The notes under the pieces were generated by a model. It saw only the letters and a program-made list of their open reading frames with translations, was not told the origin of the DNA and made no database searches. This document shows positions 10,186-25,123 of a stretch of DNA of 41,719 bases, piece by piece (the first letter of the stretch is position 1; every line of letters starts with the position of its first letter). Both the position numbers and the translations under genes were made by a program. Source of the stretch: Candidatus Nanohalalkaliarchaeum halalkaliphilum (lineage in GTDB: Archaea > Nanohalarchaeota > Nanosalinia > Nanosalinales > Nanohalalkaliarchaeaceae). The DNA is taken from assembly GCA_022729315.1 (NCBI GenBank), contig JALDAF010000003.1:1-41719 (forward strand). The letters run 5' to 3'.

Positions 10186-10344
10186 GGGTCCATGGTCTAG
10201 TGGTCAGGACGTCGCCCTTACACGCCTGCCCAAGGAAGCAGGCGGCAGTTCCTGGACGGCCTTCAACCGTCGTCCGGCTGGCGCCTGAACCTAGGTAGAG
10301 GCTGAGCAAGGCGAAGATCGGTGGTTCAAATCCGCCTGGACCCA
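10186..10344 (+). tRNA. tRNA-Val(UAC) with canonical 37/38 intron
   Basis: Acceptor GGGTCCA/TGGACCC (7 bp), T-arm GGTGG-TTCAAAT-CCGCC, anticodon stem TCGCC/GGCGA, loop CTTACA|A giving anticodon TAC. Intron 10223..10308 is flanked by a bulge-helix-bulge: CTTA/TGAG central helix, bulges CAC and CAA, inner helix GCCT/AGGC. No encoded CCA. Confidence 0.9.
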
Positions 10345-10665: not shown

Positions 10666-12423
10666 TCACTCGTCATCAGTCAGAACCAGTTCTTGATAGG
10701 TATCTTGAAATTCACGGAGGAATGACTGTCTGTCGGCTTCGGATGCGAATATTCTGATACGGTCATAACTGGTATGTGCGAATGATTCTGTGTCCGGGTC
10801 AGGTTCAGACACCTGTTTGTAGGAGATGCCAAGTCTGTCAATCGCGTCGGCAAAGCGTTTACCATCTCTTGCCCGGTAAGAGATCGTTCCACGTCTGTCC
10901 GTGTGGCCCCAATCCCATAGTGCTTGCGTCACGTAGCCTTCAACAAAGTCGGTCTGTTCAAACCGGGTTGAGATATAGGCTGGCGGTATATCTGTTTTGT
11001 TTTTGAAGCCATGTATCCTGTAAATACCGGTGAGACAGGAGGGGATCGTCACATGCACATTCTGTTTTCCTACCTCGTTATCCTGCCGCGCCTGTACTCG
11101 TTCCTTCGTTGATACGGGTAGTGGGACGTGTTCACCAAAAGTGTTGTATCGCTTATATGCAAGCCGCCGGATGGGTGCGTTCCGGTGCCTGTCAGAAAAT
11201 ACGTATCTCAGGCGATTTCCCCCGTACTTCTGGATTCGGCCTTCCAACAATCCGCTGTAAAACATCCCCTCCATATACGCTGTGATAGGAAATCGTGGCT
11301 TCCATAGTTTTCCTTTTCCCTTTGTTCCGGCCCAGTAAGCAGGAGGTTCTATCGGTATATCAAGATGTCTCATTTGATCCAGTAAGTCCTTGGATAGTAA
11401 TGAACGGCCTTGAGCGTACCGTCTTATTTTGTTCGCGGTATTTCCGATATTCGAGTGGACGTGATCTGATCCGTATCTGGGAGGTTCGCCGTGTTCCTGC
11501 CAGTAAATGGCCAGGGGATACGGCCATTCGACAAGATACGAGGGGGATAATGTCCATCGCAGATCTGTTTCCTCTGGATTATCCACTGCCTTCGCCAGCC
11601 GTGTCCGTGATCGGTTCTCCAGATGTTTTTGCATATCCCGCAGGCTGTCAATGATTACGTCCGGTGTATCAGTGAATGGATCAAGATAGTCTACCAGGTC
11701 ATCCACCGTTGTATGTCCGACCACTACGGCGGTAAGACTCTCTTCCAGGTCAAGAGGTAATTCACCCAATGGTAGATCCGGGTCTAAATCTAGATGTGAA
11801 TATACTGTGTCAACTGCTTCGTCTCGTGCTTCTATGTAAGGAGATCTGTAAAGTCGCTTCTCAACGTGTCCAACAAGCTCACGAGCTGTATCACGATCCA
11901 TGTATCCCGTAAGGTCTTCAACTAACTGTGTCTCCTGTTCTCCGAACAGAATATAGCTCTGTAGTGGACGCTTCAACTGTTCTGTAATATCCGTATAGAA
12001 CTCCCTGTCCACTGGATAAGCGTCTGATGCATGGTTGATATCCACCGAACGCTCCGCGACGGTTTCAAGTGTATCCTCCACCGCAGCAGCTTCTGTAAGA
12101 ATAAGATACCACGTTTGTGCGTGGACGTAATGAAACCCATCAAGGTTCAATCCCTCCTCGGTCGTCAGTAAATCCTGAGCGATATTCGCGTATCTGGACT
12201 GTTTTGACGCGCTCTCCAGTAGATCAGTTGTGTAATGTATTCTATCCTTTTCTTCCTCGATACGTACCGCCAAGGAGTGGACGTCGTCTATCGCGTCAGA
12301 ACAGGTATCCTGATATATACGTTCATACGTCTTTTCCCGTATCTCCTGCTCTAATCGGTCTTTTTTCTCTTCCAGTCCCCATCCAAAATACTGGTCAGAG
12401 GGGAGTTCCCACCACTGGATCAT
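10666..12423 (-). CDS. Orphan 585-aa protein; C-terminal half weakly resembles a LAGLIDADG-type fold
   Basis: Single long ORF. Candidate LAGLIDADG-like segments: ITAYMEGMFYSGLLEGRIQKYGGNRLRYVFSD and DFVEGYVTQALWDWGHTDRRGTISYRARDGKRFADAIDRLGISYKQ...YDRIRIFASEADRQSFLREF. CDS call is strong, family call weak. Confidence 0.75.
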   Translation of the reverse strand: MIQWWELPSDQYFGWGLEEKKDRLEQEIREKTYERIYQDTCSDAIDDVHSLAVRIEEEKDRIHYTTDLLESASKQSRYANIAQDLLTTEEGLNLDGFHYVHAQTWYLILTEAAAVEDTLETVAERSVDINHASDAYPVDREFYTDITEQLKRPLQSYILFGEQETQLVEDLTGYMDRDTARELVGHVEKRLYRSPYIEARDEAVDTVYSHLDLDPDLPLGELPLDLEESLTAVVVGHTTVDDLVDYLDPFTDTPDVIIDSLRDMQKHLENRSRTRLAKAVDNPEETDLRWTLSPSYLVEWPYPLAIYWQEHGEPPRYGSDHVHSNIGNTANKIRRYAQGRSLLSKDLLDQMRHLDIPIEPPAYWAGTKGKGKLWKPRFPITAYMEGMFYSGLLEGRIQKYGGNRLRYVFSDRHRNAPIRRLAYKRYNTFGEHVPLPVSTKERVQARQDNEVGKQNVHVTIPSCLTGIYRIHGFKNKTDIPPAYISTRFEQTDFVEGYVTQALWDWGHTDRRGTISYRARDGKRFADAIDRLGISYKQVSEPDPDTESFAHTSYDRIRIFASEADRQSFLREFQDTYQELVLTDDE

Positions 12424-12765: not shown

Positions 12766-13857
12766 ATGCCGGACGAGGCTGGAAAAGAAGAGAAGACGAT
12801 CGTATCGTTCAAGGTATGGAACAAGGAGAAGGAGGAGACAGAGCTCCATGCGTTGAAGCGGTACGTGGTTGAAGGGAAGCGGAACGGGCCGCACGTCGTG
12901 GTCAATGCCGGGTCGCATGGTGACGAGTTCCTGGCGATCGATGCGGCGAAGGAGCTGTATGAACGGCTGGAACCGGAGAAGGTTAACGGAAGAGTATCGA
13001 TCATCCCGGAGGCCAATATCTTTGCCGCGTTGAAGAACAAGCGGGAGACGCCGGAGCCCGAGTTTGAGCTGTACGAGTCCGAGGAACGGAATATGAACCG
13101 GTGTTTTGACAGTGTTGACCTGGTTGATGGGCCGGACGGCAATATCACTGAGCGGTTAGCGTACCACGTGCTGAAACTGGTGGTGAAGGCGGATTACTGT
13201 TTCGATCTTCATACTGCGACCGCTCCCGGGTACAAGATCGATCAGATCCGGGGGAAGACGAATCCCGAGTTCGGGAAGGATGTGCTGCAGGTACAGGAAC
13301 GGCTTATAAGGAACTCGGGTGTGGAGTATGTGATCAAGACGCCTCCACAGTATATCGGGGAAGGCGTGCTTGCAGGGGTTGCGCCGCTGCATGGTGTACC
13401 AGCGGTCACGGTCGAGATCGGTGGCGGTGCGTATTCCGAGGAGGAGCTGGAACGGTACGTCACCGTGTTGATGAACCTGATGAAGGAGGCAGGGTCGCTG
13501 TACGGTGAGCCGGACACGGTGAAGCAGAAGATCTACCGTGACCTGGAAGAGGTCTGGGCCTCGACCGCGGGAATGTATGAACCGGTCAAGGAACCGGGGG
13601 AAGCGGTGCGGAAAGGTGAAGCGCTTGGAGTTGTTACGAACGAGCGTGGTGAGCACGAGGTGGAGTCGCCGTTCGATGGTCTGGTGGAGTCGGTCCACCG
13701 CCAGGACTGGGTGAACGAGGGGACGCGCGTCTCGTACATCGCGATCAAGCAGGAGCGGACGTTCCTCGAGGCCGTGGCTGATGCATTCAGACGGTTGCTC
13801 CGGTCCTACACGGCACGGAAGGCGACACGGGAACGGGAAGGACTTCTCAAACTGTAG
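12766..13857 (+). CDS. Succinylglutamate desuccinylase/aspartoacylase family (M14-like) deacylase
   Basis: VVVNAGSHGDEFLAIDAAKELYERL (H..E zinc motif), YCFDLHTATAPGYKI, VPAVTVEIGGG. Confidence 0.85.
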   Translation: MPDEAGKEEKTIVSFKVWNKEKEETELHALKRYVVEGKRNGPHVVVNAGSHGDEFLAIDAAKELYERLEPEKVNGRVSIIPEANIFAALKNKRETPEPEFELYESEERNMNRCFDSVDLVDGPDGNITERLAYHVLKLVVKADYCFDLHTATAPGYKIDQIRGKTNPEFGKDVLQVQERLIRNSGVEYVIKTPPQYIGEGVLAGVAPLHGVPAVTVEIGGGAYSEEELERYVTVLMNLMKEAGSLYGEPDTVKQKIYRDLEEVWASTAGMYEPVKEPGEAVRKGEALGVVTNERGEHEVESPFDGLVESVHRQDWVNEGTRVSYIAIKQERTFLEAVADAFRRLLRSYTARKATREREGLLKL

Positions 13858-14770
13858 TATCGTCTCCGGAAACTGTTTTCCCGTACATGTACGCCATCAC
13901 CCGGTCGTAGAGATCGGTTCCAACACGTTTCTCATCACCTTCCAGGGATGGTGCCGTATTGATCTCACCGATCACGAACCTGTCGCTGTCTGTCTCCTCG
14001 ATGATGTCGACGCCGCAGATATCCAGCCCGGACACCCGTGCCGCCTGGAGCGCTGTACGGCGCATCGTTTCCGGTGCATCGAACCGTTCCATGTGGCCGC
14101 CAACCGCGACGTTGGAACGCCACTCCTCGTCGCCGCCAACCCGTTTGTAGGAATAGGTGTCGTCCCCGATCACGACGATACGGATGTCTTCTCCCGGGTT
14201 CTCCACGTATTCCTGGAGGCAGATATCCTGGTCGAACAGGGTGAGGGTGTCAACCAGTGCCGCAAGGTCTTCCGGGTCCTGCACGCGCATCACACCCTGT
14301 CCGCCGTACCCCGAGCTCAGCTTGACCACCAGCGGATAGCCGAGTGCGTTACCGGCACGCTCCGCTTCCCCTGTGGACAGCATGTACACGGACTGTGGGA
14401 CGGGGACTCCGGCTCTTCCCAGTATCTTGATCGTGTAGAATTTGTTTGACGCGATGAACAGGGAGCGAGACGCTACCTGGGTGTAGACGCCGTGATCGTG
14501 CAGGATATCAGGTAGACGTTCCGCGTACAGCATGTCCGGGTCGAAGAGCCGGAGAAACAAGCAGTCGAACGTCGTCAGATCGGTGTCACGGTACCGTATC
14601 CCGGTACCGTCCCCGTACACCAGATGGATGTTCTCGAGTGGGACGCCAAGAACCGTGTCAAAATACTGTTCCGCGGCATGCAGGAACGCCGGGTGTTCGT
14701 CGGATTCGCTTCCGTACAGGATAGCACACCGGACCTCATCTCCGTTTGCGCCGACGCTCATACCATCCAT
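13847..14770 (-). CDS. ATP-grasp ligase, RimK-like (paralog A)
   Basis: PLVVKLSSGYGGQGVMRVQDPEDL, ICLQEYVENPGEDIRIVVIGDD, LDICGVDIIEETDSDRFVIGEINTAPSLEG; start ATG overlaps the upstream stop (TGATG). Confidence 0.9.
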   Translation of the reverse strand: MDGMSVGANGDEVRCAILYGSESDEHPAFLHAAEQYFDTVLGVPLENIHLVYGDGTGIRYRDTDLTTFDCLFLRLFDPDMLYAERLPDILHDHGVYTQVASRSLFIASNKFYTIKILGRAGVPVPQSVYMLSTGEAERAGNALGYPLVVKLSSGYGGQGVMRVQDPEDLAALVDTLTLFDQDICLQEYVENPGEDIRIVVIGDDTYSYKRVGGDEEWRSNVAVGGHMERFDAPETMRRTALQAARVSGLDICGVDIIEETDSDRFVIGEINTAPSLEGDEKRVGTDLYDRVMAYMYGKTVSGDDTTV

Positions 14771-15855
14771 CAGTCCGGAGTGATGTGCTGCACTGCCTGT
14801 TCGTACGCCTCAAGATGTTGTGAGCGTGGAATCGCGGGAGAACGGTCCTGGAGCTCGGGCACGGTGTCCATGTCCTCTACACTGACCTTTCCAATATATA
14901 AAGCGTCCGCAAGTTCAGGCCGGTTCTTCAGTATGGAATATCCCTGGAAGTAGATATGGTCCTTGATAAACCCTCCCGGCTGTGCCGTATCCTGCAGCCC
15001 GCGTTTCACCCGGTACGTCCGGATGAACGCCAGGCGCTGGTCCAGTCCTTTCTCCCGCATCATTTGGTACAGGTCGAAGAACGGAAGGTCTGCATTGTTG
15101 ATAGCGATGACGCGGGACGTGATCCGTGGCAACGTGTCATCGAACACGCCGACCTGTGACTCGTTGAACGTTGGCAACCCCTCCTCTGCCACCTGGTATC
15201 CCTGCGTCCCATAGATCAGTGCCGCGTTGTTCTGCTCGATACCGTTATGGGTACGGACAGAATGCGTGGACTCATGTATCAGCACACGTTTCGCCTGCAT
15301 GATCCCGTATTCGCCGTTCTCAGGGATCATGATGGTGCGTTTCCGCGGATGGTTCCGTATCGCCTCCGCCTCCACCAGTGTACAGTCGTAGTCCATCCCC
15401 AGCAGGTCGAACATGTTGTGATACACTTCCCGCAGCTGTTCCGCGGAGAGACGTGGACCGTCCTCATCGTCAGGGATATGCTTCGGGTTCAACAGGTTGT
15501 CCGCCTCCTCCACCATCGCCGCATCCGGAAACCCGTAGATTTCCCGGGACACGCCGGTGATGTCCGTGCTCCCGATGGCCTCGATGATCCGCTTCCGCCC
15601 CTTCAAACCGGCCACGAACCGGTCCGCCAGCAGGTCGTCTCCCAGCGCTGCTTTGATATCCTGGATCAGCCGGGCCGCCCGATTCTGATCCTTCGGTGTG
15701 AACGTCCGGTACTCGAACCGGGGATTATACTCCCTGTTCTCCTCCACGTTGTTGAAGAACCCGGCCTTCTCCTCCTCATAGTTCAACGGGTACAGGTAGT
15801 CGTAAAAATCCAGGAGATCCAGCGCGTCCTCAACCAGGTGTATCAGCGAAGCCAT
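14770..15855 (-). CDS. DUF1704 / 'QEGLA motif' family metallopeptidase-like protein (MATCAP-related)
   Basis: AKRVLIHESTHSVRTHNGIEQN (HExxH-like with following R..N) and YQVAEEGLPTFNES corresponding to the QEGLA motif. Confidence 0.75.
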   Translation of the reverse strand: MASLIHLVEDALDLLDFYDYLYPLNYEEEKAGFFNNVEENREYNPRFEYRTFTPKDQNRAARLIQDIKAALGDDLLADRFVAGLKGRKRIIEAIGSTDITGVSREIYGFPDAAMVEEADNLLNPKHIPDDEDGPRLSAEQLREVYHNMFDLLGMDYDCTLVEAEAIRNHPRKRTIMIPENGEYGIMQAKRVLIHESTHSVRTHNGIEQNNAALIYGTQGYQVAEEGLPTFNESQVGVFDDTLPRITSRVIAINNADLPFFDLYQMMREKGLDQRLAFIRTYRVKRGLQDTAQPGGFIKDHIYFQGYSILKNRPELADALYIGKVSVEDMDTVPELQDRSPAIPRSQHLEAYEQAVQHITPD

Positions 15856-15923
15856 GCAGTAACTACAGACCTCATAGGTTTTAAAACTCCCTCAATCAAC
15901 AGTAGTCCAGAGGAGGACACCAC

Positions 15924-16796
15924 ATGAACATCGGAATAGCAGGTACGGACCGACAGCAGGAAGAGGACTGGATCATGGACGAAATCACGGAACGCGGCCA
16001 CGATGCCGTGTTCATCGATCCGTCAGACGTGTCATACGTCCTGTCGGACGGCGATCTCGACATCCGGTACAGCGGCAACTCGTTAAACGATCTGGACGTG
16101 GTGTTCGTCCGCCGTACCCGGTTCGACCTGGAGGCCAGTCGCGACCTGGTTGCGGCACTGGACACGATCGGTGTTCGCACCATCGAACGGAAGGACGTGT
16201 TCTACAACCCATTATCCAAGTTCATCAGCCTCCTCAGCTTTGTTGATACCGAGATCGATGCTATCGCCATCCCATCAACAGGGATCGCGAAATGCCGGGA
16301 GGATGCGGGGCAGATCGCGGACAGAATCGGCTACCCGCTTATCACGAAACCGATCGCCGGCCGGGAAGGAGAAGGCGTCCAGCGGATCGACGACGCTGCA
16401 GAACTTGACACCGTGCTGGCCGATGCTGCGTTCCCGATGCTGCTCCAGGAGTTCCTGGATGTTGAGGAAGAGTACCGCATCCTTGTCGTTGGTGACACGG
16501 CACTGGGCGCGGTGACGAAGGAACCGATCGAGGGGGACGATGATTCCGTGGCCCGGAACTTCGCGCAGGGGGCCGAGTTCAATCCTGCGGACGTCGACCA
16601 CCTGTTCGAACCGGCCGTTCAGATCGCGCAGGCCATGAACATCGAACTCGCCGGTGTAGATATCGTCAAGACCACGGACGGTGACTACTACGAGATCGAA
16701 TGCAACCGCTGCCCACAGTTCAAGGGATTCACGCAGGCACACGAGGATGTGGACGTTCCCGCGCACATCGTGGATTACATCGAGGAACAGGTGTAA
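15924..16796 (+). CDS. ATP-grasp ligase, RimK/LysX-like (paralog C)
   Basis: YPLITKPIAGREGEGVQRIDD, MLLQEFLDVEEEYRILVVGD, LAGVDIVKTTDGDYYEIECNRCPQFKGF (D...ExN intact). Confidence 0.88.
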   Translation: MNIGIAGTDRQQEEDWIMDEITERGHDAVFIDPSDVSYVLSDGDLDIRYSGNSLNDLDVVFVRRTRFDLEASRDLVAALDTIGVRTIERKDVFYNPLSKFISLLSFVDTEIDAIAIPSTGIAKCREDAGQIADRIGYPLITKPIAGREGEGVQRIDDAAELDTVLADAAFPMLLQEFLDVEEEYRILVVGDTALGAVTKEPIEGDDDSVARNFAQGAEFNPADVDHLFEPAVQIAQAMNIELAGVDIVKTTDGDYYEIECNRCPQFKGFTQAHEDVDVPAHIVDYIEEQV

Positions 16797-16858
16797 GGCG
16801 GCCGGTGGGAGACATAACTTCTTACAGTTATTTAAGTCTGAACGGGCGAGTTGCATCC

Positions 16859-17689
16859 ATGGATCTGTTCGGGAAGAAGGCACAGCAGGAGCTTGAATCA
16901 CTCAAGGAAGAGCTGGCCGAAACACAGAAGGCGCTGGAAGAGACCGAACAGGCACTGGAACGGTACCGATCAAAGTTCCGGAACGCCGAGACGGAGAAAC
17001 AGGAGGCACACAAGGATCGGAAGGACGCCGAGCAACGCCTCCAGAACCTGAAACAGTCCATCGACTCCGCCGCGGACAACGTGCGTGACACGCTTCCACT
17101 CCAGGACCTGGAACATGTACTGTCCAGCCTCGAGGATATCGAGTTTATGACGGCGCACGCCTACACCGCCTACCTTCCACCGCAACATGCGGTGTTCGCT
17201 GATGACACGGACGGTGGAGAAATCATCTTCTTTGATCCGTACACGACCGGGGTCGTACTGTATCCGCCGGTACCGGTGAAACTGGAGCAGACCAGTGCAC
17301 GCACATTCCAGACCGGACAGCTGGAGACATTGTTGAACGGCACCTACCTGTACGTCCACCTGTCCGAAGACGGTTCTGGCGCGGCCATCATCCAGGAACA
17401 GGACGTGACCGACCACGTCCTACAGCCCGATGCAGCGGTGGACAGCCTGATCGAGGAACTTGAGAATCTGCAGGTTCAGGACTGCCAGCACATCCTCGTG
17501 ACCGGTGACGACGAACCGGTCACAAGATTTACCGAACAGCTCGATCAGCCGGTGAACCTGGCCACATCAAAGCTGTTGAGTGTTAACCGGAAGACAGATC
17601 TGAAGCAGGCGTTCACCTCAGCGTTCACGGTAGAGTGCCGCCGACTCACGGATGAGGATATCGAACAGATCAAGGAAAACGTGTTCTGA
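16859..17689 (+). CDS. Coiled-coil N-terminus plus Vms1/Ankzf1 (VLRF1)-like domain, apparently lacking the catalytic loop
   Basis: Coiled coil ELESLKEELAETQKALEETEQALERYRSKF..., then LEHVLSSLEDIEFMTAHAYTAYLPP...VVLYPPVPV...DSLIEELENLQVQDCQHILVTGDDEPVTRFTEQL: order resembles haloarchaeal Vms1-like proteins from memory. Confidence 0.5.
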   Translation: MDLFGKKAQQELESLKEELAETQKALEETEQALERYRSKFRNAETEKQEAHKDRKDAEQRLQNLKQSIDSAADNVRDTLPLQDLEHVLSSLEDIEFMTAHAYTAYLPPQHAVFADDTDGGEIIFFDPYTTGVVLYPPVPVKLEQTSARTFQTGQLETLLNGTYLYVHLSEDGSGAAIIQEQDVTDHVLQPDAAVDSLIEELENLQVQDCQHILVTGDDEPVTRFTEQLDQPVNLATSKLLSVNRKTDLKQAFTSAFTVECRRLTDEDIEQIKENVF

Positions 17690-17692
17690 CGG

Positions 17693-18586
17693 TTACAGTC
17701 CTTTCTGGCTTTCGCGTTCCATGACTTTTTCGTGCATGTACTGCATCATCACGTCGGGAACGTTGACGTCGATCATGTCCTGAAGTTCCTTGGAGATGCC
17801 GGGGGACATGTTGGCTTCGACGATGTACGGTCCGTCGTCGGATTCGATGATGTCGACGCCGCAGATGTCGAACCCGAGGAGTCGTGCTGCCTTCAGTGCG
17901 GCCTCCCGTGTTTCTTCGGATGCGTCGTATGGGACGCGGTTGCCGCCCGTTGAGATATTGGACCGCCATTCCTCGTCGTCTGCGACCCGCTTGTAGCAGA
18001 ATGTGTCGTCGCCGACAACGATCACGCGGACATCCTCTCCTGGGTTTTCAACGTACTGCTGGAGGCAGATATCCTGTTCGAACAGGGACATGGTGTCGAT
18101 CAAGGGACTGAGGTCTGAGCGGTTCGAGGACCGCATCACGCCTTTGCCGCCGTAGCCTGAGATGAGTTTGATGACGACCGGGTATCCGTACTCTTCTGCT
18201 GCCCGTTCCGTTTCCTCCGTGGACAGCAGGTAGGCGGAGCGCGGGATGTTGAGCCCGCCCTCGGATAGGACCTTGACCGAGTAGAACTTGTTGTTGGCCA
18301 GTGTCAGCGAGTCAGAGTCCAGTTGGGTGTAGACCCCGTTCCGTATCAGGATCTCGGGCAGGTATTCGCCGAACAGCATGTCATCGTCGAAGAACCGGAT
18401 GAATGCCGCGTCGAACGTGGAAAGATCCGTGTTCTTATACATCGGCTTGAGTCCGTCGTCGTACACGATCTTGATACCGTCGACGGGAACTGCCATCACG
18501 TGGTCAAAGTAGTGCTGTGCTGCTTCGATGAACAGGTTGTGTTCCGTCGATTCTTTGCCATACAGGATCACGATGTCGAGGTCCAT
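17693..18586 (-). CDS. ATP-grasp ligase, RimK-like (paralog B)
   Basis: Clear paralog of 13847..14770 (shared NKFYS/TVK, LISGYGGKGVMR, QDICLQQYVENPGEDVRVIVVGDDT, CGVDIIESDDGPYIVEANMSPG). Confidence 0.9.
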   Translation of the reverse strand: MDLDIVILYGKESTEHNLFIEAAQHYFDHVMAVPVDGIKIVYDDGLKPMYKNTDLSTFDAAFIRFFDDDMLFGEYLPEILIRNGVYTQLDSDSLTLANNKFYSVKVLSEGGLNIPRSAYLLSTEETERAAEEYGYPVVIKLISGYGGKGVMRSSNRSDLSPLIDTMSLFEQDICLQQYVENPGEDVRVIVVGDDTFCYKRVADDEEWRSNISTGGNRVPYDASEETREAALKAARLLGFDICGVDIIESDDGPYIVEANMSPGISKELQDMIDVNVPDVMMQYMHEKVMERESQKGL

Positions 18587-18598
18587 GATGTAGCACGT

Positions 18599-19408
18599 TC
18601 ACGCCTTCAGATAACCGGCGACTTTTTCGTACATGTTTTTTCCACTGACTGATGTGAACCGTTCCAGGTCCGGGTCGAGGTAGGCTTCGACCACCTTCCC
18701 GTCCACGAGGCGGACCCGGCAGATGTCTGCTCCGATCGCCTTCACCGTCTGTTCTACAACCTCTTCCAGGTCGGAGGATATTGTGTGGTAGGTTTCCTTG
18801 ACCTGGTCTGCACGGAGCCGCCAGCTGTCCCCCTCCAGTTTGAGTGAGACGATATCTCCGTCAACGTACAGGCAGTCGAACGTGTCACCTTCCACGAACT
18901 CCTGCAGTATCAATACGTGCTTGCCGTGGTCCATGTGCTCCACGAAGGAACGAAGCTCTTCATCGGATTCCAGCAGTGTCATGTCCCGCCGAACAAATCC
19001 TTCAAACTTTTTGCCGACCATCGGGAACGCGATGTGATCCTCGATCCCGGACACGCCTTTCTCCGTGGACACAACTGCGGTCGCCGGGATCGGTACGTTA
19101 CGCTCCTCCAGGACCTGTGGCAGATAGTTCTTTTTGGCAAGGATAAAGAACGTGGCCGCATCGATATTTGTCGTGATATCCTTCTCCAGCAACACTTCAA
19201 GGAATACCCGGGAGAAGATCGCGGTCTTCGGCCGGGGATCCATGTATAACGCATCGTAATCATCGATAGATTCGCCTTCCACCAGGACCTGTTCTCCGTT
19301 TCCTGCATCGATCCGGACGCTGGCGATCGATTTCGTGGTGACCTCGTCGAAATAATCCTCAAACTGCTCTGCAAACGTGTCATTGTCCGTTATCATCAGT
19401 AAATTCAT
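18599..19408 (-). CDS. ATP-grasp-like protein with degenerate metal-binding motif (paralog D)
   Basis: FPMVGKKFEGFVRRDMTLLES, LILQEFVEGDTFDCLYVDGDIV, but GADICRVRLVDGKVVEAYLDPDLE instead of G.D.xGVD...E.N..PG; start possibly 19423. Confidence 0.75.
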   Translation of the reverse strand: MNLLMITDNDTFAEQFEDYFDEVTTKSIASVRIDAGNGEQVLVEGESIDDYDALYMDPRPKTAIFSRVFLEVLLEKDITTNIDAATFFILAKKNYLPQVLEERNVPIPATAVVSTEKGVSGIEDHIAFPMVGKKFEGFVRRDMTLLESDEELRSFVEHMDHGKHVLILQEFVEGDTFDCLYVDGDIVSLKLEGDSWRLRADQVKETYHTISSDLEEVVEQTVKAIGADICRVRLVDGKVVEAYLDPDLERFTSVSGKNMYEKVAGYLKA

Positions 19409-20966
19409 CGAGTTGCTTGTCACCTCCGTCGCCGTTGCCGTTCCGTTCGTCTGGTGCCCACATCCGTGTTACAGCGCCTTCTTCCCGCCAGTTCTCGGTG
19501 AAGTCCTCCACCGAATCAGGGATGATGTGTTTGAGGACGCGGCCGCTGCGCAGGATCTTACTTAACTGCATTTCTAAGCTTTTGCTTAATTGCTGGTACA
19601 GGGAGATGCTGGAATAAGTAAGATCGTTCTTGATCCGCCAGAATGCGGTGGTTCCACGTGGCGCAAGCACGAGGTAGCCGCCGTTATCTTGCGCCATCAT
19701 TGCACGACTCATTTCCGCCCTGTCAACGTAGTATACGCCGCCAGAGGAGTTGCTGGGATCGACCACGAGGATCTCCTCGCCCTCAACGCCAACGCAGAGC
19801 ACGTAGCTGTCTGCATCTGAACCGGGGAACAGCAGGGACTTATCGAAGTATGGGATAAGCAGTGCGCCGTTATTGAACCATATCTTGAACTCGTCCGCCA
19901 CGTCCGTGATCTTATCCTGTTCCACGAACGCGGTACGCACCTCTTTCTGCGTCAGTTTCTCGATAACCTCGCCCAGCGCCTCCGGTTCAGGTGGTTCTTC
20001 CACGTTTTCGCTGATATCGCCCTGTGTCACGTCGAATCCGAAGATGTTCAGCGCCATCTCCGTGGAGGCCGGTCCCTGCCGTGGGGTGGTACCCCCGACG
20101 AAGAAATCCTTGATATCTTCCAGTGTCTCGATCTCTGCCTTGACGCGTTTGAACAGGATATCCTTGCTCATAAGCTCCTTGTTCGGTGACAGCATGAAGT
20201 AGCCGCTGTCCGTTGCCACCGTTGTACTGAACGTGGAGATGTCACGGACCTCGCCGGATTCCTCGCCAAGCCTGATGCGTTTCCCGGGCTCCAGCACATC
20301 CGCACCCCGAAGATAGATGCCGGCAGCATAGTTCTGGATCAGATCCTTGAACCCGAAGAACCCGAGTGCGGCCAGGAGCAGGATAACGCCCCAGGTTGCC
20401 GCCGTCAGTGTAATATCGATAACATCCGTTGTGAACAGCCCGAGGTGTGCGATCGCGATCTGGACGACAACCAGGTACAGCAGGAACTTGACACCGGTCA
20501 GGAACGCATCAAGGAACTTCGGTGACATGCCAATAGTCTCCACCTGTCCCCGTAACTCCAGGTTATTGATGAAGGAGCGTACGCCGACCATCAGCCCCTT
20601 CACCAGTATCACACCGAGTACAAACAGGAGGACAGCGGTCGTGAATGTTGCTACCTGGTCTGTCAGCCCCTCGAACTGGGCAAGTATCCGGGCGTTGATC
20701 GTAACCAGGGATAGGACAAGGGTGATAACGATGATCAGGTACTGCACGAGTTTGTCCGGTGACCGCTGCCGTTCACGCAGCTTATCGATATGTTCCTCTG
20801 CCTGTTTCACCCGGTTCTCCCACATCTTTTGGGTGAGACTGGCTGCGATCCGTGCCAGCAGCAGCCCCACGATAAGTATAACAAGTGCAAGGAGGACCCG
20901 GGCACCCGGACTTTGCTGTAGTGAACTCAGGGCAGCAGCCCCGAGGGCAGAAGTTGAGAGTGGCAT
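19380..20966 (-). CDS. MscS-family mechanosensitive channel fused to a C39-peptidase-like (inactive) C-terminal domain
   Basis: TM segments and MscS beta-domain (AAGIYLRGADVLEPGKRIRLGEESGEVRDISTFSTTV). C-terminus TPRQGPASTEMALNIFGFDVTQGDISE...DSYVLCVGVEGEEILVVDPSNSSGGVYYVDRAEMSRAMMAQDNGGYLVLAP fits C39 layout without Cys/His. Confidence 0.8.
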   Translation of the reverse strand: MPLSTSALGAAALSSLQQSPGARVLLALVILIVGLLLARIAASLTQKMWENRVKQAEEHIDKLRERQRSPDKLVQYLIIVITLVLSLVTINARILAQFEGLTDQVATFTTAVLLFVLGVILVKGLMVGVRSFINNLELRGQVETIGMSPKFLDAFLTGVKFLLYLVVVQIAIAHLGLFTTDVIDITLTAATWGVILLLAALGFFGFKDLIQNYAAGIYLRGADVLEPGKRIRLGEESGEVRDISTFSTTVATDSGYFMLSPNKELMSKDILFKRVKAEIETLEDIKDFFVGGTTPRQGPASTEMALNIFGFDVTQGDISENVEEPPEPEALGEVIEKLTQKEVRTAFVEQDKITDVADEFKIWFNNGALLIPYFDKSLLFPGSDADSYVLCVGVEGEEILVVDPSNSSGGVYYVDRAEMSRAMMAQDNGGYLVLAPRGTTAFWRIKNDLTYSSISLYQQLSKSLEMQLSKILRSGRVLKHIIPDSVEDFTENWREEGAVTRMWAPDERNGNGDGGDKQLDEFTDDNGQ

Positions 20967-21020: not shown

Positions 21021-22238
21021 TCAGTCTCTAACGCGTCCTCCGCCGATTAAACGCCACCGAGAGGCGAATCTGCGGGATATTGCGACGCGATCTCCTTCTT
21101 CGGCGCATACCGGGAGCTTGAGATCGACTGTTATCGGGTTTCCAGCGGTTGTTACGACGCCAGATGTTTTCCCGGTTCCTGTTGTCAGCAGGAGCGGTTC
21201 GTTCTCCTTGATGTTCTGTATTTCGTCAGCATCTTCGCTGCCAACCGCACGGTCCATCAGGTCCACGTCGATCGTCAACTGGTTCCGTACCGATGGCACC
21301 TTTCCTTTCAGACCGAGGGTGTTCCCTGCCAGATTATCGGACTTGGTGAGTGCCGGGTCAAGATCAGTTTCTATCCCCAGAAGCCCGCCAGGCCGTCCCT
21401 GATCCACCTGCCTGTTACCGTGGATCACGCTCTTCACGGTCGTTTCCAGCGTCTTCCATTTTCCGTCGTCCTGGTAGCCGGGACAGATTTCGATAGTGTC
21501 CCCCACTTCGATCGTTCCACGCTGCAGGCTGCCGCCGACAACACCGCCCCGTAGATCCTTTGGCGGTGTGCCCGGCTTGTTCACATCGAATGAGCGTGCG
21601 ATCAGCATCTTCGGGTCTGCATCCGCGTCACGTTCCGGTGTGGGGATTGTATCCTCAATCGTCTGCAACAGTACATCGATATTTGTCTCGTGCTGTGCGG
21701 AGATAGGGATGATCGGGGCATCCTCCGCGATGCTTCCCTGTAAGAAGTCCTTGATCTGCCGGTAGTTCTCCGTTGCCGCTTCTTCATCAACGAGGTCTAT
21801 CTTGTTCTGTACGACGATGACGTTGTCGATCCCGACCTTGTCCAGTGCCGCAAGATGTTCGCGTGTCTGTGGCTGTGGAACCTCCTCGTTTGCCGCCACC
21901 ATCAGCAGTGCACCGTCCATGATCGCGGCGCCGGACAGCACGTTCGCCATCAGTGTTTCATGCCCCGGCGCATCCACGAGACTGATGCTGCGAACCGTCT
22001 CCGGTTCAGAACCGTCGCTGCAGCTATCTTTTACCGTGTATGTACCGTCGCTGCACTGTCGGACCGTAATATCTGCGTATCCGAGGCGGATGGTGATACC
22101 GCGCTTCAGTTCTTCGGAGTGTGTATCAGTCCATTTGCCGCTGAGCGCATTCGTGAGCGTTGTCTTTCCGTGGTCCACGTGCCCGACGAGACCGATATTT
22201 GCTTCAGGTAATGGGTCGTTGCTCACGAACTGGGTCAC
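21021..22238 (-). CDS. eif2g: Translation initiation factor aIF2 subunit gamma
   Basis: ANIGLVGHVDHGKTTLTNALSGKWTDTHSEELKRGITIRLGYAD...VDAPGHETLMANVLSGAAIMDGALL. Confidence 0.95.
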   Translation of the reverse strand: MTQFVSNDPLPEANIGLVGHVDHGKTTLTNALSGKWTDTHSEELKRGITIRLGYADITVRQCSDGTYTVKDSCSDGSEPETVRSISLVDAPGHETLMANVLSGAAIMDGALLMVAANEEVPQPQTREHLAALDKVGIDNVIVVQNKIDLVDEEAATENYRQIKDFLQGSIAEDAPIIPISAQHETNIDVLLQTIEDTIPTPERDADADPKMLIARSFDVNKPGTPPKDLRGGVVGGSLQRGTIEVGDTIEICPGYQDDGKWKTLETTVKSVIHGNRQVDQGRPGGLLGIETDLDPALTKSDNLAGNTLGLKGKVPSVRNQLTIDVDLMDRAVGSEDADEIQNIKENEPLLLTTGTGKTSGVVTTAGNPITVDLKLPVCAEEGDRVAISRRFASRWRLIGGGRVRD

Positions 22239-22247
22239 CTCGAGACG

Positions 22248-22658
22248 TTACGCGTCCTCATCCGCGTCTTCGTCTTCCTCTCCGTCTTCGGAGGGGTTGA
22301 GAAGTTCGTCAACAGACGTGTTTCCTTCCTCGACGACCTTCAGGTTTAACTGCTCAATATCATCCGCAACGGTGTTGCCGCGCACGGTTTTCCGTTGCCG
22401 TTCGCCGTCTCGAACATCTGTTGCGCCAGTATCTTTCCCGATAAGTATGCGTTTCCGGCCGGTTCCCTGGATGGATTTGCGCATCGGGAAACCGTCCTGA
22501 TCGCTTCCTCCCGTGATTTCAAGGGTGTATCCGTCGAGGCCGACCATGGTTCCGTCCACCTCATCGCCGACCTGTTTCCCGGTTAATGCGTTTGCCTGCT
22601 GTTCATCCAGTTCGAACTGGTGTGAATCGCCGTCTGGTGTGCCGATAACTGCTTGCAT
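22248..22658 (-). CDS. rps6e: Ribosomal protein S6e
   Basis: FELDEQQANALTGKQVGDEVDGTMVGLDGYTLEITGGSDQDGFPMRKSIQG; highly acidic C-terminus. Confidence 0.95.
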   Translation of the reverse strand: MQAVIGTPDGDSHQFELDEQQANALTGKQVGDEVDGTMVGLDGYTLEITGGSDQDGFPMRKSIQGTGRKRILIGKDTGATDVRDGERQRKTVRGNTVADDIEQLNLKVVEEGNTSVDELLNPSEDGEEDEDADEDA

Positions 22659-22803
22659 AGTGTATCACCGTGCTCAGTCGGCCCTTTACGTTTGCATGCA
22701 GGGCGTTCCAGAGCAGTAACGGTTTGCGCTCCAACCTTTTTAAATAGTGGTATCGGGGGAGAGGGTTCATCCTTTATTAACGAGGATGCCCAATCGCTGT
22801 TGT

Positions 22804-23670
22804 ATGGCCACAGGAATCGGGGAGGCGCTGGACAGTGCATGGGATGGACTGATGCAGGTAGTGACGTTCCAGGGAACTGCACACCCACAGTTGCTTGAGG
22901 TGGCGGTGATCGCTGTCGTCGGGTTTATCGGCGGACACATCCTGTCAGAGGTTATGTTGCGGCTTCTGCGGATGACCTCTCTGGATGAGATGGGTGTGAA
23001 GTCGGATGTGCAGCGGGCACTCCGCAAACTGAACTACCACGGAACGCTGTCCAGTCTTTTCGCGGATACGGTGCGGTGGGGTATCTATATCCTTACAGTG
23101 TTTGCGATCTTCCACCGGTTCGAAGCCGAATTCGTCACCCAGTACTCGAACATCGGCATGCTGTGGCTGTCTAACGTCGTTCTGGCGATGTTCATTTTCA
23201 TCATCGGAGCACTGTTGTCGGAGCGGATCGGTGGTATCGTCGTCCAGGTGTTCCGGGCCGGCCGTATTACGGGACTGGTAGACGAATCTAATGCAGAGGT
23301 CCCACTGTACCTGGTGGTGGGCCGTGCGGTGAAATACCTGGGATACCTTGTGACGATGGTTATCGTCCTGAGCTTCCTGGGGGTGGATGATGTGATCATC
23401 CATATCCTCGTGGCCGTGATTTCGTTGAGTGTCATGCTTGCGTTCCTGATCGCTGGAAGACACGTGTTTACCAATATCGCGGTCTCGATATATTTCCAGA
23501 TGTCCCACGTGTTCCGGGGCGGCGAACAGGTAACGATCGGGGAGTACAGCGGTGAGATAATGGGGGTGCGGCCGCTGTACACGAAGATCCGGTCACATGG
23601 ACAGATCTATTACGTGCCGAACACAAAGTTGATATCCGAGGTTATCGAATACAACGGTGAAGGAGAGTGA
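22804..23670 (+). CDS. Small MscS-family mechanosensitive channel
   Basis: TM segments, then HVFTNIAVSIYFQMSHVFRGGEQVTIGEYSGEIMGVRPLYTKIRSHGQIYYVPNTKLIS. Confidence 0.85.
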   Translation: MATGIGEALDSAWDGLMQVVTFQGTAHPQLLEVAVIAVVGFIGGHILSEVMLRLLRMTSLDEMGVKSDVQRALRKLNYHGTLSSLFADTVRWGIYILTVFAIFHRFEAEFVTQYSNIGMLWLSNVVLAMFIFIIGALLSERIGGIVVQVFRAGRITGLVDESNAEVPLYLVVGRAVKYLGYLVTMVIVLSFLGVDDVIIHILVAVISLSVMLAFLIAGRHVFTNIAVSIYFQMSHVFRGGEQVTIGEYSGEIMGVRPLYTKIRSHGQIYYVPNTKLISEVIEYNGEGE

Positions 23671-23671
23671 G

Positions 23672-25123
23672 ATGCGCTGGACCGTTGTCACCTACTACGT
23701 AGGACTCTTCCTCAGGATTTTCTCAGTGTTACTGCTGGTACCGGTCGCTGTCGGCCGGTACTACGGTGAAAGCTTTGTCGTGATGGAGCCGTTCCTCATC
23801 GCATCGTTTCTTGCGATCGTCTTCGGCTCCCTGCTGACACGGGTCGGGGCAGACCATCGTCCGGAAACCGTGGAGGCCATGGCGATCGCAACGTTTGCAT
23901 GGATCCTGGCGGTCGGACTGGGGGCGATACCGGTGTACACGATCGCGGACGTGTCGATCGTGGACGCGTATTTCGACGCGATGGCAGGGTTCACAACGAC
24001 CGGGATGGATATCATACCGGCCGCGGTACTTGCGGAGTTACCATATTCGCTCCTGTTCTGGCGGGTGTTCATGCAGTGGATCGGCGGACTGGGGATCCTT
24101 ACATTCTTCGTGATGGTGCTCTCCGAGTCCGGCGGTGTGGCCAGTAAACTGGTGTCGCAGGAGGCGAACAAGACAGATTCCGGGGTTATCCGGCCATCCC
24201 TGTTCAACGCCATCAAATCCATGTGGTATGTCTACATCGTTCTGACCATCATCCAGGCGATCCTGCTGTACATGCTGGCGGTTCCCGCGTTCCACGCGGT
24301 CGGACATGCGATGGCAACCCTTCCCACCGGTGGATTCACCACGACAGGAGACTTTGCAGGGATGATGGGTGGTGGCGGCACCCAGGCCGTGCTGACCGTG
24401 TTCATGTTTCTGGGAGCAACTAACTTTCTACTGATCTATGCGCTGTTTCAGGGGGATATCTGGCGCATGATCCGGGACTTCGAGTTCCGCGTATATTTCA
24501 GTGTGTTCGCGGTTGCACTGGCACTCATCGCACTGGACCTGATTGTGAACACGGGGAGAGGATTCCAGGAAGCAGTCTCAACATCACTATTTCATACAGC
24601 AAGCATCGTAAGCTCTTCCGGATTTACGCTTGAGGCTGTTGGGGAGTTTCCAACGTTCTCCAAGGCACTGATCGTTATAATCATGTTTATCGGCGGGTCA
24701 CTCGGCTCCACCACCGGCGGTTTCAAGATGCTCAGGTTCGGGGTCATGTTTAAAGTGGTCCGACAGCACGTCAAATCGCTGACACTTCCGCCCACGGTGA
24801 TGAACCCGGTCGTGGTGAAGGGACGCATCCTCAAGGACCGCGAACTCATCGAGATCACCTCGTTCTTCTTCATCTGGCTCGGTGTGATCGTGACCGGCGG
24901 ACTGATCACGATCTGGTTTTCGCCTCACGGCGTTACGGACGCGATCCAGCTTATGACGTCCGCGGTCGGGACGATGGGTCCGACATTCATCACGGGGGAG
25001 GAGCTCCGGCAGCTTCCCGGAATCGTCAAGATCTCTCTTTCCCTCGGCATGCTTGCTGGCCGTCTAGAGATGCTACCTATCCTCGTCCTCCTGAACCGGG
25101 GGCTGGGACGGTGGATCCGGTAA
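23672..25123 (+). CDS. trkH: TrkH-family K+ uptake membrane subunit
   Basis: GFTTTGMDIIP, PTGGFTTTGDFAG, IGGSLGSTTGGFKMLRF pore motifs; start 1 nt after MscS stop. Confidence 0.92.
   Translation: MRWTVVTYYVGLFLRIFSVLLLVPVAVGRYYGESFVVMEPFLIASFLAIVFGSLLTRVGADHRPETVEAMAIATFAWILAVGLGAIPVYTIADVSIVDAYFDAMAGFTTTGMDIIPAAVLAELPYSLLFWRVFMQWIGGLGILTFFVMVLSESGGVASKLVSQEANKTDSGVIRPSLFNAIKSMWYVYIVLTIIQAILLYMLAVPAFHAVGHAMATLPTGGFTTTGDFAGMMGGGGTQAVLTVFMFLGATNFLLIYALFQGDIWRMIRDFEFRVYFSVFAVALALIALDLIVNTGRGFQEAVSTSLFHTASIVSSSGFTLEAVGEFPTFSKALIVIIMFIGGSLGSTTGGFKMLRFGVMFKVVRQHVKSLTLPPTVMNPVVVKGRILKDRELIEITSFFFIWLGVIVTGGLITIWFSPHGVTDAIQLMTSAVGTMGPTFITGEELRQLPGIVKISLSLGMLAGRLEMLPILVLLNRGLGRWIR

Follow-up and report, generated by a model that had tools for sequence, protein, structure and literature searches.

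A conserved Nanohaloarchaeota cassette of a RimK-like ligase, a degenerate ATP-grasp protein and an MscS fusion channel as a candidate ligase-peptidase-channel module

In bacteria, RimBK pairs add and trim poly-glutamate on S6 (PMC11957791, PMC7343187), with RimB trimming the poly-Glu made by RimK (PMC11957791). The RloABC system of P. aeruginosa, which controls hypo-osmotic survival, consists of a retropepsin, an ATP-grasp protein and a membrane protein whose transglutaminase domain is dead (PMC12239564), while the metallopeptidase MATCAP/TMCP removes C-terminal Tyr and Glu from tubulin (PMC10499314). Here we analyzed a 41,719-nt stretch (hereafter the window) of Candidatus Nanohalalkaliarchaeum halalkaliphilum, whose genome assembly measures 1.13 Mb and is 76% complete. 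An earlier note on this DNA had read eight open reading frames at 12766–20966 as a single neighbourhood of writers and erasers of an amino-acid tag or peptide, possibly sensed by an osmotic channel. All eight genes are present there, and three of them, encoding an MscS fusion channel (MscSf), a degenerate ATP-grasp protein (GraspD) and a RimK-like ligase (GraspB), form a conserved core. We read this core, with a probability of roughly 0.55, as an archaeal module of ligase, peptidase and channel in its Nanohaloarchaeota form, which would add and remove an amino-acid tag or make a peptide, in a manner linked to MscS gating. To our knowledge, RimK-type extension of proteins or peptides is known chiefly in bacteria, and we know of no archaeal targets.

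To place the core, we compared the window genome with its 27 nearest relatives (28 Nanohaloarchaeota genomes of the order, the relatives including J07AB43, J07AB56, SG9, M3_22, QJJ-5 and QJJ-7), and assigned protein families with the curated models of Pfam and NCBIfam; L-numbers below denote loci, and f-numbers families, in the compared genomes. A clear GraspB ortholog occurs in 25 of the 28 genomes, and throughout the Nanohaloarchaeota loci fetched the genes run in the order S6e, aIF2gamma, MscSf, GraspD, GraspB. Where aIF2gamma and the three core genes are all retained, order and strand are identical (23/23 loci), and the four genes mostly overlap or sit within 100 bp of one another; in the window, the spacing is 54 bp between aIF2gamma and MscSf, −44 bp between MscSf and GraspD and +12 bp between GraspD and GraspB. 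TrkH usually lies divergent beyond S6e, and a PIN-RpoE1-S24e-Kae1 run is found further along. Since the core is conserved and the slot after GraspB is variable, the eight genes represent a conserved core plus the slot content of one genome. MscSf-GraspD-GraspB is conserved as a block, while GraspA with its metallopeptidase, GraspC, the VLRF1-like protein and the M14 hydrolase fill the slot; the reading of all eight genes as one system is not supported, whereas at the core the support is stronger than the earlier note had claimed. Alternatively, metabolic genes with no relation to one another might simply have gathered behind a housekeeping operon, as would fit the differences among genera in the genes after GraspB and the restriction of GraspC and VLRF1 to the slot of the window genome. 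We consider this very unlikely: for the core it is contradicted by the invariant arrangement in 23 of 23 loci, and other archaeal families have related sets at unrelated sites on the chromosome.

All four ATP-grasp proteins of the window match RimK models, GraspD weakly; the earlier note had called GraspA, GraspB and GraspC RimK-like. The model for RimK family alpha-L-glutamate ligases (TIGR00768, cut-off 143.4) is passed by GraspA and GraspB, and missed by GraspC and GraspD. GraspB falls below every equivalog cut-off (score/cut-off: LysX 122/275.6, CofF 71/300, MptN 126/350, GshB 65/272, RimK 110/331), and GraspA likewise misses those for LysX, CofF, MptN, RimK and GshB by a wide margin. LysX, MptN and CofF share the RimK ligase superfamily with these proteins, but their equivalog cut-offs are far off and their neighbours are different; orthology to CofF, LysX or GshB, a concern of the earlier note, is thus not supported. 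The catalytic set of the B-type ligases (Arg200, Arg208-x-Asn210, Gly214-Gly215 and Glu257-x-Asn259, by alignment to GraspB) is full in GraspA, GraspB and GraspE (extra YheCD/RimK-like ATP-grasps in some slots) and nearly full in GraspC, and on this basis GraspA, GraspB and GraspC look active. In contrast, the set is kept by none of the 25 GraspD orthologs, in agreement with the description of GraspD as degenerate. Judged by its residues, GraspD is a catalytically dead pseudo-ATP-grasp and not a conventional writer. The GraspD analogues of other archaea, here called N, also lack the set. Since GraspD and N have lost it and B has kept it, a RimK-like ligase with an intact active site beside a dead copy is a recurring pair. 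Of the remaining two proteins, GraspA is a paralog of GraspB that falls within the Nanohaloarchaeota clade of the B tree; no ortholog of GraspC was found in 119 relatives, confining it to the window genome, and its proposed membership in the system is doubtful.

The MscS fusion itself was confirmed, and its partner can now be named as a C39/phytochelatin-synthase (PCS)-like domain. Peptidase_C39_2 (PF13529) matches 22 of the 23 orthologous C-terminal domains (31.5 bits for L074, cut-off 24), while the cut-off of the phytochelatin synthase model PF05023 (24.9) is missed (14.5 bits for L074; best E among members 2.3e-4). An AlphaFold2 model of the domain built from 19 sequences (pTM 0.70, core pLDDT about 85) has as its closest PDB fold the primitive phytochelatin synthase Alr0975 (E 5e-9), including its glutathione acyl-intermediate, followed by the C39 peptidase domains of PCAT1 and ComA and the endoisopeptidase PeiR. 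These relatives came from fold comparison, the C39-domain profile having no match among PDB sequences. All residues of the triad Cys293/His387/Asp403 (L074 numbering) are kept by 21 of 31 fusions, 14 from Nanohaloarchaeota and 7 from elsewhere. The Cys is lost in ten Nanohaloarchaeota (the window and nine relatives), eight of which have also lost the His, and the Asp is retained in all fusions. In the window the triad reads Gln-Ser-Asp and, lacking both the catalytic Cys and His, the domain is predicted to be a pseudopeptidase. No description of an MscS-C39 fusion was found among open-licence papers.

The nearest fold of this domain also bears on a different product, a small gamma-glutamyl-type peptide (a glutathione/phytochelatin-like metabolite or a peptide solute), for which GCS2 would make gamma-Glu-X, the ATP-grasp would extend it, the PCS-like domain would cleave it, and MscS would release it or be gated. 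We regard this as possible though doubtful. GCS2 occupies the slot after GraspB in four Nanohaloarchaeota loci (L066, L077, L078, L080), all with an intact C39, and elsewhere adjoins retropepsin-B (L199; GCS2-retropepsin-B in f126); GraspB also scores on glutathione synthase models. However, most loci are without GCS2, GraspB is nearer to RimK, MptN and LysX than to GshB, the phytochelatin match in Pfam remains under its cut-off, and RimB, a retropepsin, has poly-Glu chains as its substrate (PMC11957791). The glutathione/phytochelatin pathway (GshA/GCS2, GshB, Alr0975) resembles the cassette in that one locus can hold GCS2, a PCS-like fold and a GshB/RimK-like ATP-grasp, but the parts are not together in most genomes, and in the cassette the PCS-like domain is joined to a channel and in many cases dead.

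The co-occurrence expected by the earlier note was seen throughout Nanohaloarchaeota for the core, and in other archaea as B-type ligases with peptidases and MscS channels. A search seeded with a ligase from a distant family was followed by one with a 15-sequence profile, which at E<=1e-75 found B-type ligases in 84 of 397 genomes; neighbourhoods were then drawn at 57 loci outside the window's order, in 34 families, picked by ligase similarity and blind to neighbours. A RimB-type retropepsin (PF05618/PF13975) adjoins B in 36 of the 57 loci (25 of the 34 families); PF05618 is found in 0/28 Nanohaloarchaeota, and is present in H. volcanii and M. acetivorans. A C39-MscS fusion adjoins B or D-B in f9, f13, f24, f32 and f44, and a stand-alone MscS adjoins B or N in f50 and f62 and N in f104. 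MscS lies within two genes of B in 7 of 34 families versus 0.47 expected within about 3 kb from the 75 MscS genes of 34 genomes (p about 3e-7, with families treated as independent). M14 genes adjoin retropepsin-B in f31 and lie close to it in f105, and a MATCAP gene lies two genes after retropepsin-N-B in f18. As separate observations, f18 (L021, L022, L023) carries a retropepsin, a pseudo-ATP-grasp, a RimK-like ligase, DUF72, MATCAP and a methionyl-tRNA-synthetase-like gene in a single run, and f23 (L148, L149, L150, L151, L152, L188) has a protein of ∼242 aa with an 'APHEGGE'-like motif right after N-B, two of which were tested and gave no meaningful Pfam match.

These neighbourhoods also speak to whether the ligase modifies the translation apparatus, acting on the acidic tail of S6e or on aIF2gamma as RimK does on bacterial S6 and CDC123 on eIF2gamma. 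In Nanohaloarchaeota, S6e and aIF2gamma lie directly upstream of the cassette, S6e tails are EEDEE-like at the C-terminal end, and CDC123 is an ATP-grasp protein that binds eIF2gamma (PMC4431377). Outside Nanohaloarchaeota, however, the ligase is away from S6e and aIF2gamma yet still near peptidases and MscS, and halophile proteins commonly have acidic tails, as does RpoE1 of the same run, so that a target in translation seems unlikely. A CDC123-like role, prompted by aIF2gamma, was set aside as not general, the adjacency being limited to Nanohaloarchaeota.

Within Nanohaloarchaeota, the slot after GraspB takes several kinds of gene. A P-loop MobB-like protein occupies it in L065, L067, L069, L070, L072, L073 and L074, and an equal-sized unread gap after GraspB in L068, L071 and L075 was counted as the same gene. 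M14 is found in L065, L067–L069, the window and family f5, GraspE in L033–L038, L077–L079 and L082, and a divergent MATCAP2 in L033–L038, while the window's slot holds the VLRF1-like gene, GraspC, MATCAP, GraspA and M14. The P-loop protein (L070 10579–11673, L067 8777–9799) combines a MobB-like NTPase region with an N-terminal domain of no assigned family, and comes in two divergent forms. The M14 gene, earlier called aspartoacylase-like, matches the AstE/AspA family PF24827. The coupling of GraspA to a DUF1704 metallopeptidase was likewise upheld: DUF1704 is now PF08014 (MATCAP), and the two genes overlap by one base (TGATG). MATCAP is named after tubulin tyrosine carboxypeptidases, and the NCBI model for the same family is QEGLA. 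MATCAPs of these loci carry HExxH, not HExxxH; the HESTH of the window is one residue shorter than HExxxH, and its EEG glutamate is retained. The window genome has a second MATCAP with the usual HExxxH on another contig (L028 8930–10144), away from the ATP-grasp genes of this set.

Slot content varies with the state of the channel's peptidase domain. Among loci with a readable slot, 7 of the 8 whose C39 is dead have an in-locus MATCAP, against 0 of the 13 whose C39 is intact (Fisher p 7e-5, uncorrected for kinship), and GCS2 or the P-loop protein occurs only alongside an intact C39. The window MATCAP falls outside the MATCAP2 clade (100% SH-aLRT split, long branches) and has a VKRGLxDT...GG motif in common with distant archaeal copies, so it was probably recruited separately, and in-locus MATCAP has apparently been recruited twice. 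Replacement of the C39 peptidase by MATCAP where the former is dead is suggested by this pattern, though not proved by it.

From the observed gene content, conservation, residue losses and fold, we infer ligation by GraspB, which, aided by its dead partner GraspD, would add an amino acid, most likely glutamate as with RimK, to the tail end of a protein or to a short peptide. In some lineages, the GCS2 genes and the phytochelatin-synthase fold point towards a peptide as the acceptor. The product would be trimmed by the retropepsin in most archaea, by the channel-borne cysteine peptidase in most Nanohaloarchaeota, and by a MATCAP-type metallopeptidase where the C39 is dead (the window and the clade of SG9 and J07AB56). 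By binding or processing the product, the channel's domain could tie the ligation state to the opening of the osmotic valve. In a stronger version, which we put forward tentatively, the channel with its own peptidase would read or erase the tag written by the co-encoded ligase and its pseudo-enzyme partner, such that reversible ligation sets the osmotic valve directly; this would be an undescribed osmosensing by amino-acid addition, in which cysteine, aspartic and zinc peptidases are interchanged.

Several observations weigh against a ligase-peptidase-channel module with exchangeable peptidases. The MscS-linked families form three clades on the B tree rather than seven independent events, which could reflect a single ancient link followed by losses, and many B loci are without MscS. 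The C39-MATCAP exchange amounts to three independent tree contrasts, two to three of which are as predicted and none opposite (sign-test p 0.25–0.5). Some genomes with an intact C39 have other MATCAP genes elsewhere, f13 and f32 combine an intact C39-MscS with a retropepsin, and L079 has a dead C39 yet no MATCAP. A strict rule that MATCAP replaces C39 was rejected, being broken by L079 and resting on too few independent contrasts. Since the core does co-occur across genomes and its ligase falls well below the cut-offs for CofF, LysX and GshB, writers, erasers and an osmotic channel stand as the best reading of the locus.

Such a module would fit a wider logic common to RimBK, RloABC and tubulin tyrosination. 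As in RimABK of Pseudomonas (PMC11957791, PMC7343187), a RimK-family ligase is genetically linked to a dedicated peptidase, which is a RimB-family retropepsin in most archaeal B loci; unlike RimABK, Nanohaloarchaeota have C39-MscS or MATCAP instead of a retropepsin, a pseudo-ATP-grasp and MscS are added, and RimA is missing. RloABC (PMC12239564) shares the combination of an ATP-grasp, a peptidase and a membrane protein with a dead papain-like-fold (transglutaminase) domain, but its membrane partner has seven transmembrane helices and a periplasmic transglutaminase domain and RloA is secreted, whereas the cassette has MscS (PF00924) with a C39/PCS-like domain. In tubulin, TTL/TTLL ligases are opposed by MATCAP/TMCP (PMC10499314, PMC12393276), again an ATP-grasp against a MATCAP-family metallo-carboxypeptidase, but the cassette has no known tubulin target and the window enzyme carries HExxH, not HExxxH. 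The near-universal cassette, with such a ligase joined to a mechanosensitive channel, is a direct candidate for a connection of amino-acid ligation with osmotic stress in salt-shocked symbionts, and the recurrent pseudo-ATP-grasp partner, with unrelated peptidases swapped at one position, yields clear predictions on the peptidase's task. Among open-licence papers, we found no description of DUF1704 with ATP-grasp, of ATP-grasp in Nanohaloarchaea, of RimK with aspartoacylase in archaea, or of PCS with a mechanosensitive channel. Parts of the gene set may have been noted by Iyer and colleagues in their amidoligase survey of 2009.

Table 1. Features of the cassette and its surroundings in the window.
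Feature	Coordinates	Strand	Evidence
M14 AstE/AspA-type amidohydrolase with biotin-lipoyl-like C-terminus	12766..13857	+	PF24827, 78 bits
GraspA, RimK-like ligase	13847..14770	-	PF08443 104 bits; TIGR00768 146.8 bits
MATCAP/QEGLA-type metallopeptidase (HESTH ... EEG)	14770..15855	-	PF08014 102.8 bits, cut-off 27
GraspC, RimK-family ligase	15924..16796	+	RimK 75 bits; TIGR00768 125.3 bits
Degenerate VLRF1 (Vms1-like), coiled coil	about 16859..17689	+	matches of relatives; no Pfam/NCBIfam family of its own
GraspB, RimK-like ligase	17693..18586	-	RimK 118 bits; TIGR00768 167.1 bits
GraspD, degenerate ATP-grasp	18599..19423	-	PF08443 weak, 28 bits; TIGR00768 41.4 bits
MscSf, MscS channel fused to C-terminal ~250-aa C39/phytochelatin-synthase-like papain-fold domain (~residues 276-460)	19380..20966	-	PF00924 MscS beta-domain
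aIF2 gamma, adjoining the cassette upstream, co-directional	21021..22238	-	locus comparison
Ribosomal protein S6e with acidic C-terminal tail, heading the run	22248..22658	-	locus comparison

The Vms1-like assignment holds as homology, relatives of the window protein matching acVLRF1 (E 1e-15 to 1e-18), but membership in the cassette does not, VLRF1-like genes of other genomes sitting at other loci. The GGxSQ loop (KHKKGGYSQ) is present in the relatives and missing from the window copy, which is therefore unlikely to release peptides from ribosomes; its single-sequence structure prediction reached pLDDT 48. The protein probably lies outside the system. A defence role was considered, and seven proteins gave no PADLOC match. 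Synthesis of graspetides or other ribosomally synthesized and post-translationally modified peptides was set aside, the matches to such models being weak, with no precursor search made.

Around the cassette, the aIF2gamma of J07AB56 (L033 14426–17494) is a 1022-aa protein in which an intein-like insertion splits the GTPase P-loop (...HVDHGKCISKDES...). In the window, a second, short MscS gene and TrkH (22747–25123, +) are divergent from S6e, TrkH being likewise placed in most Nanohaloarchaeota. On the other side, a tRNA gene at 10186–10344 (+) carries an 87-nt insertion (intron) in its anticodon loop (Rfam 53.9 bits; missed by ARAGORN), and between it and the M14 gene lies a 585-aa open reading frame (10666–12423, −) with no Pfam or NCBIfam match.

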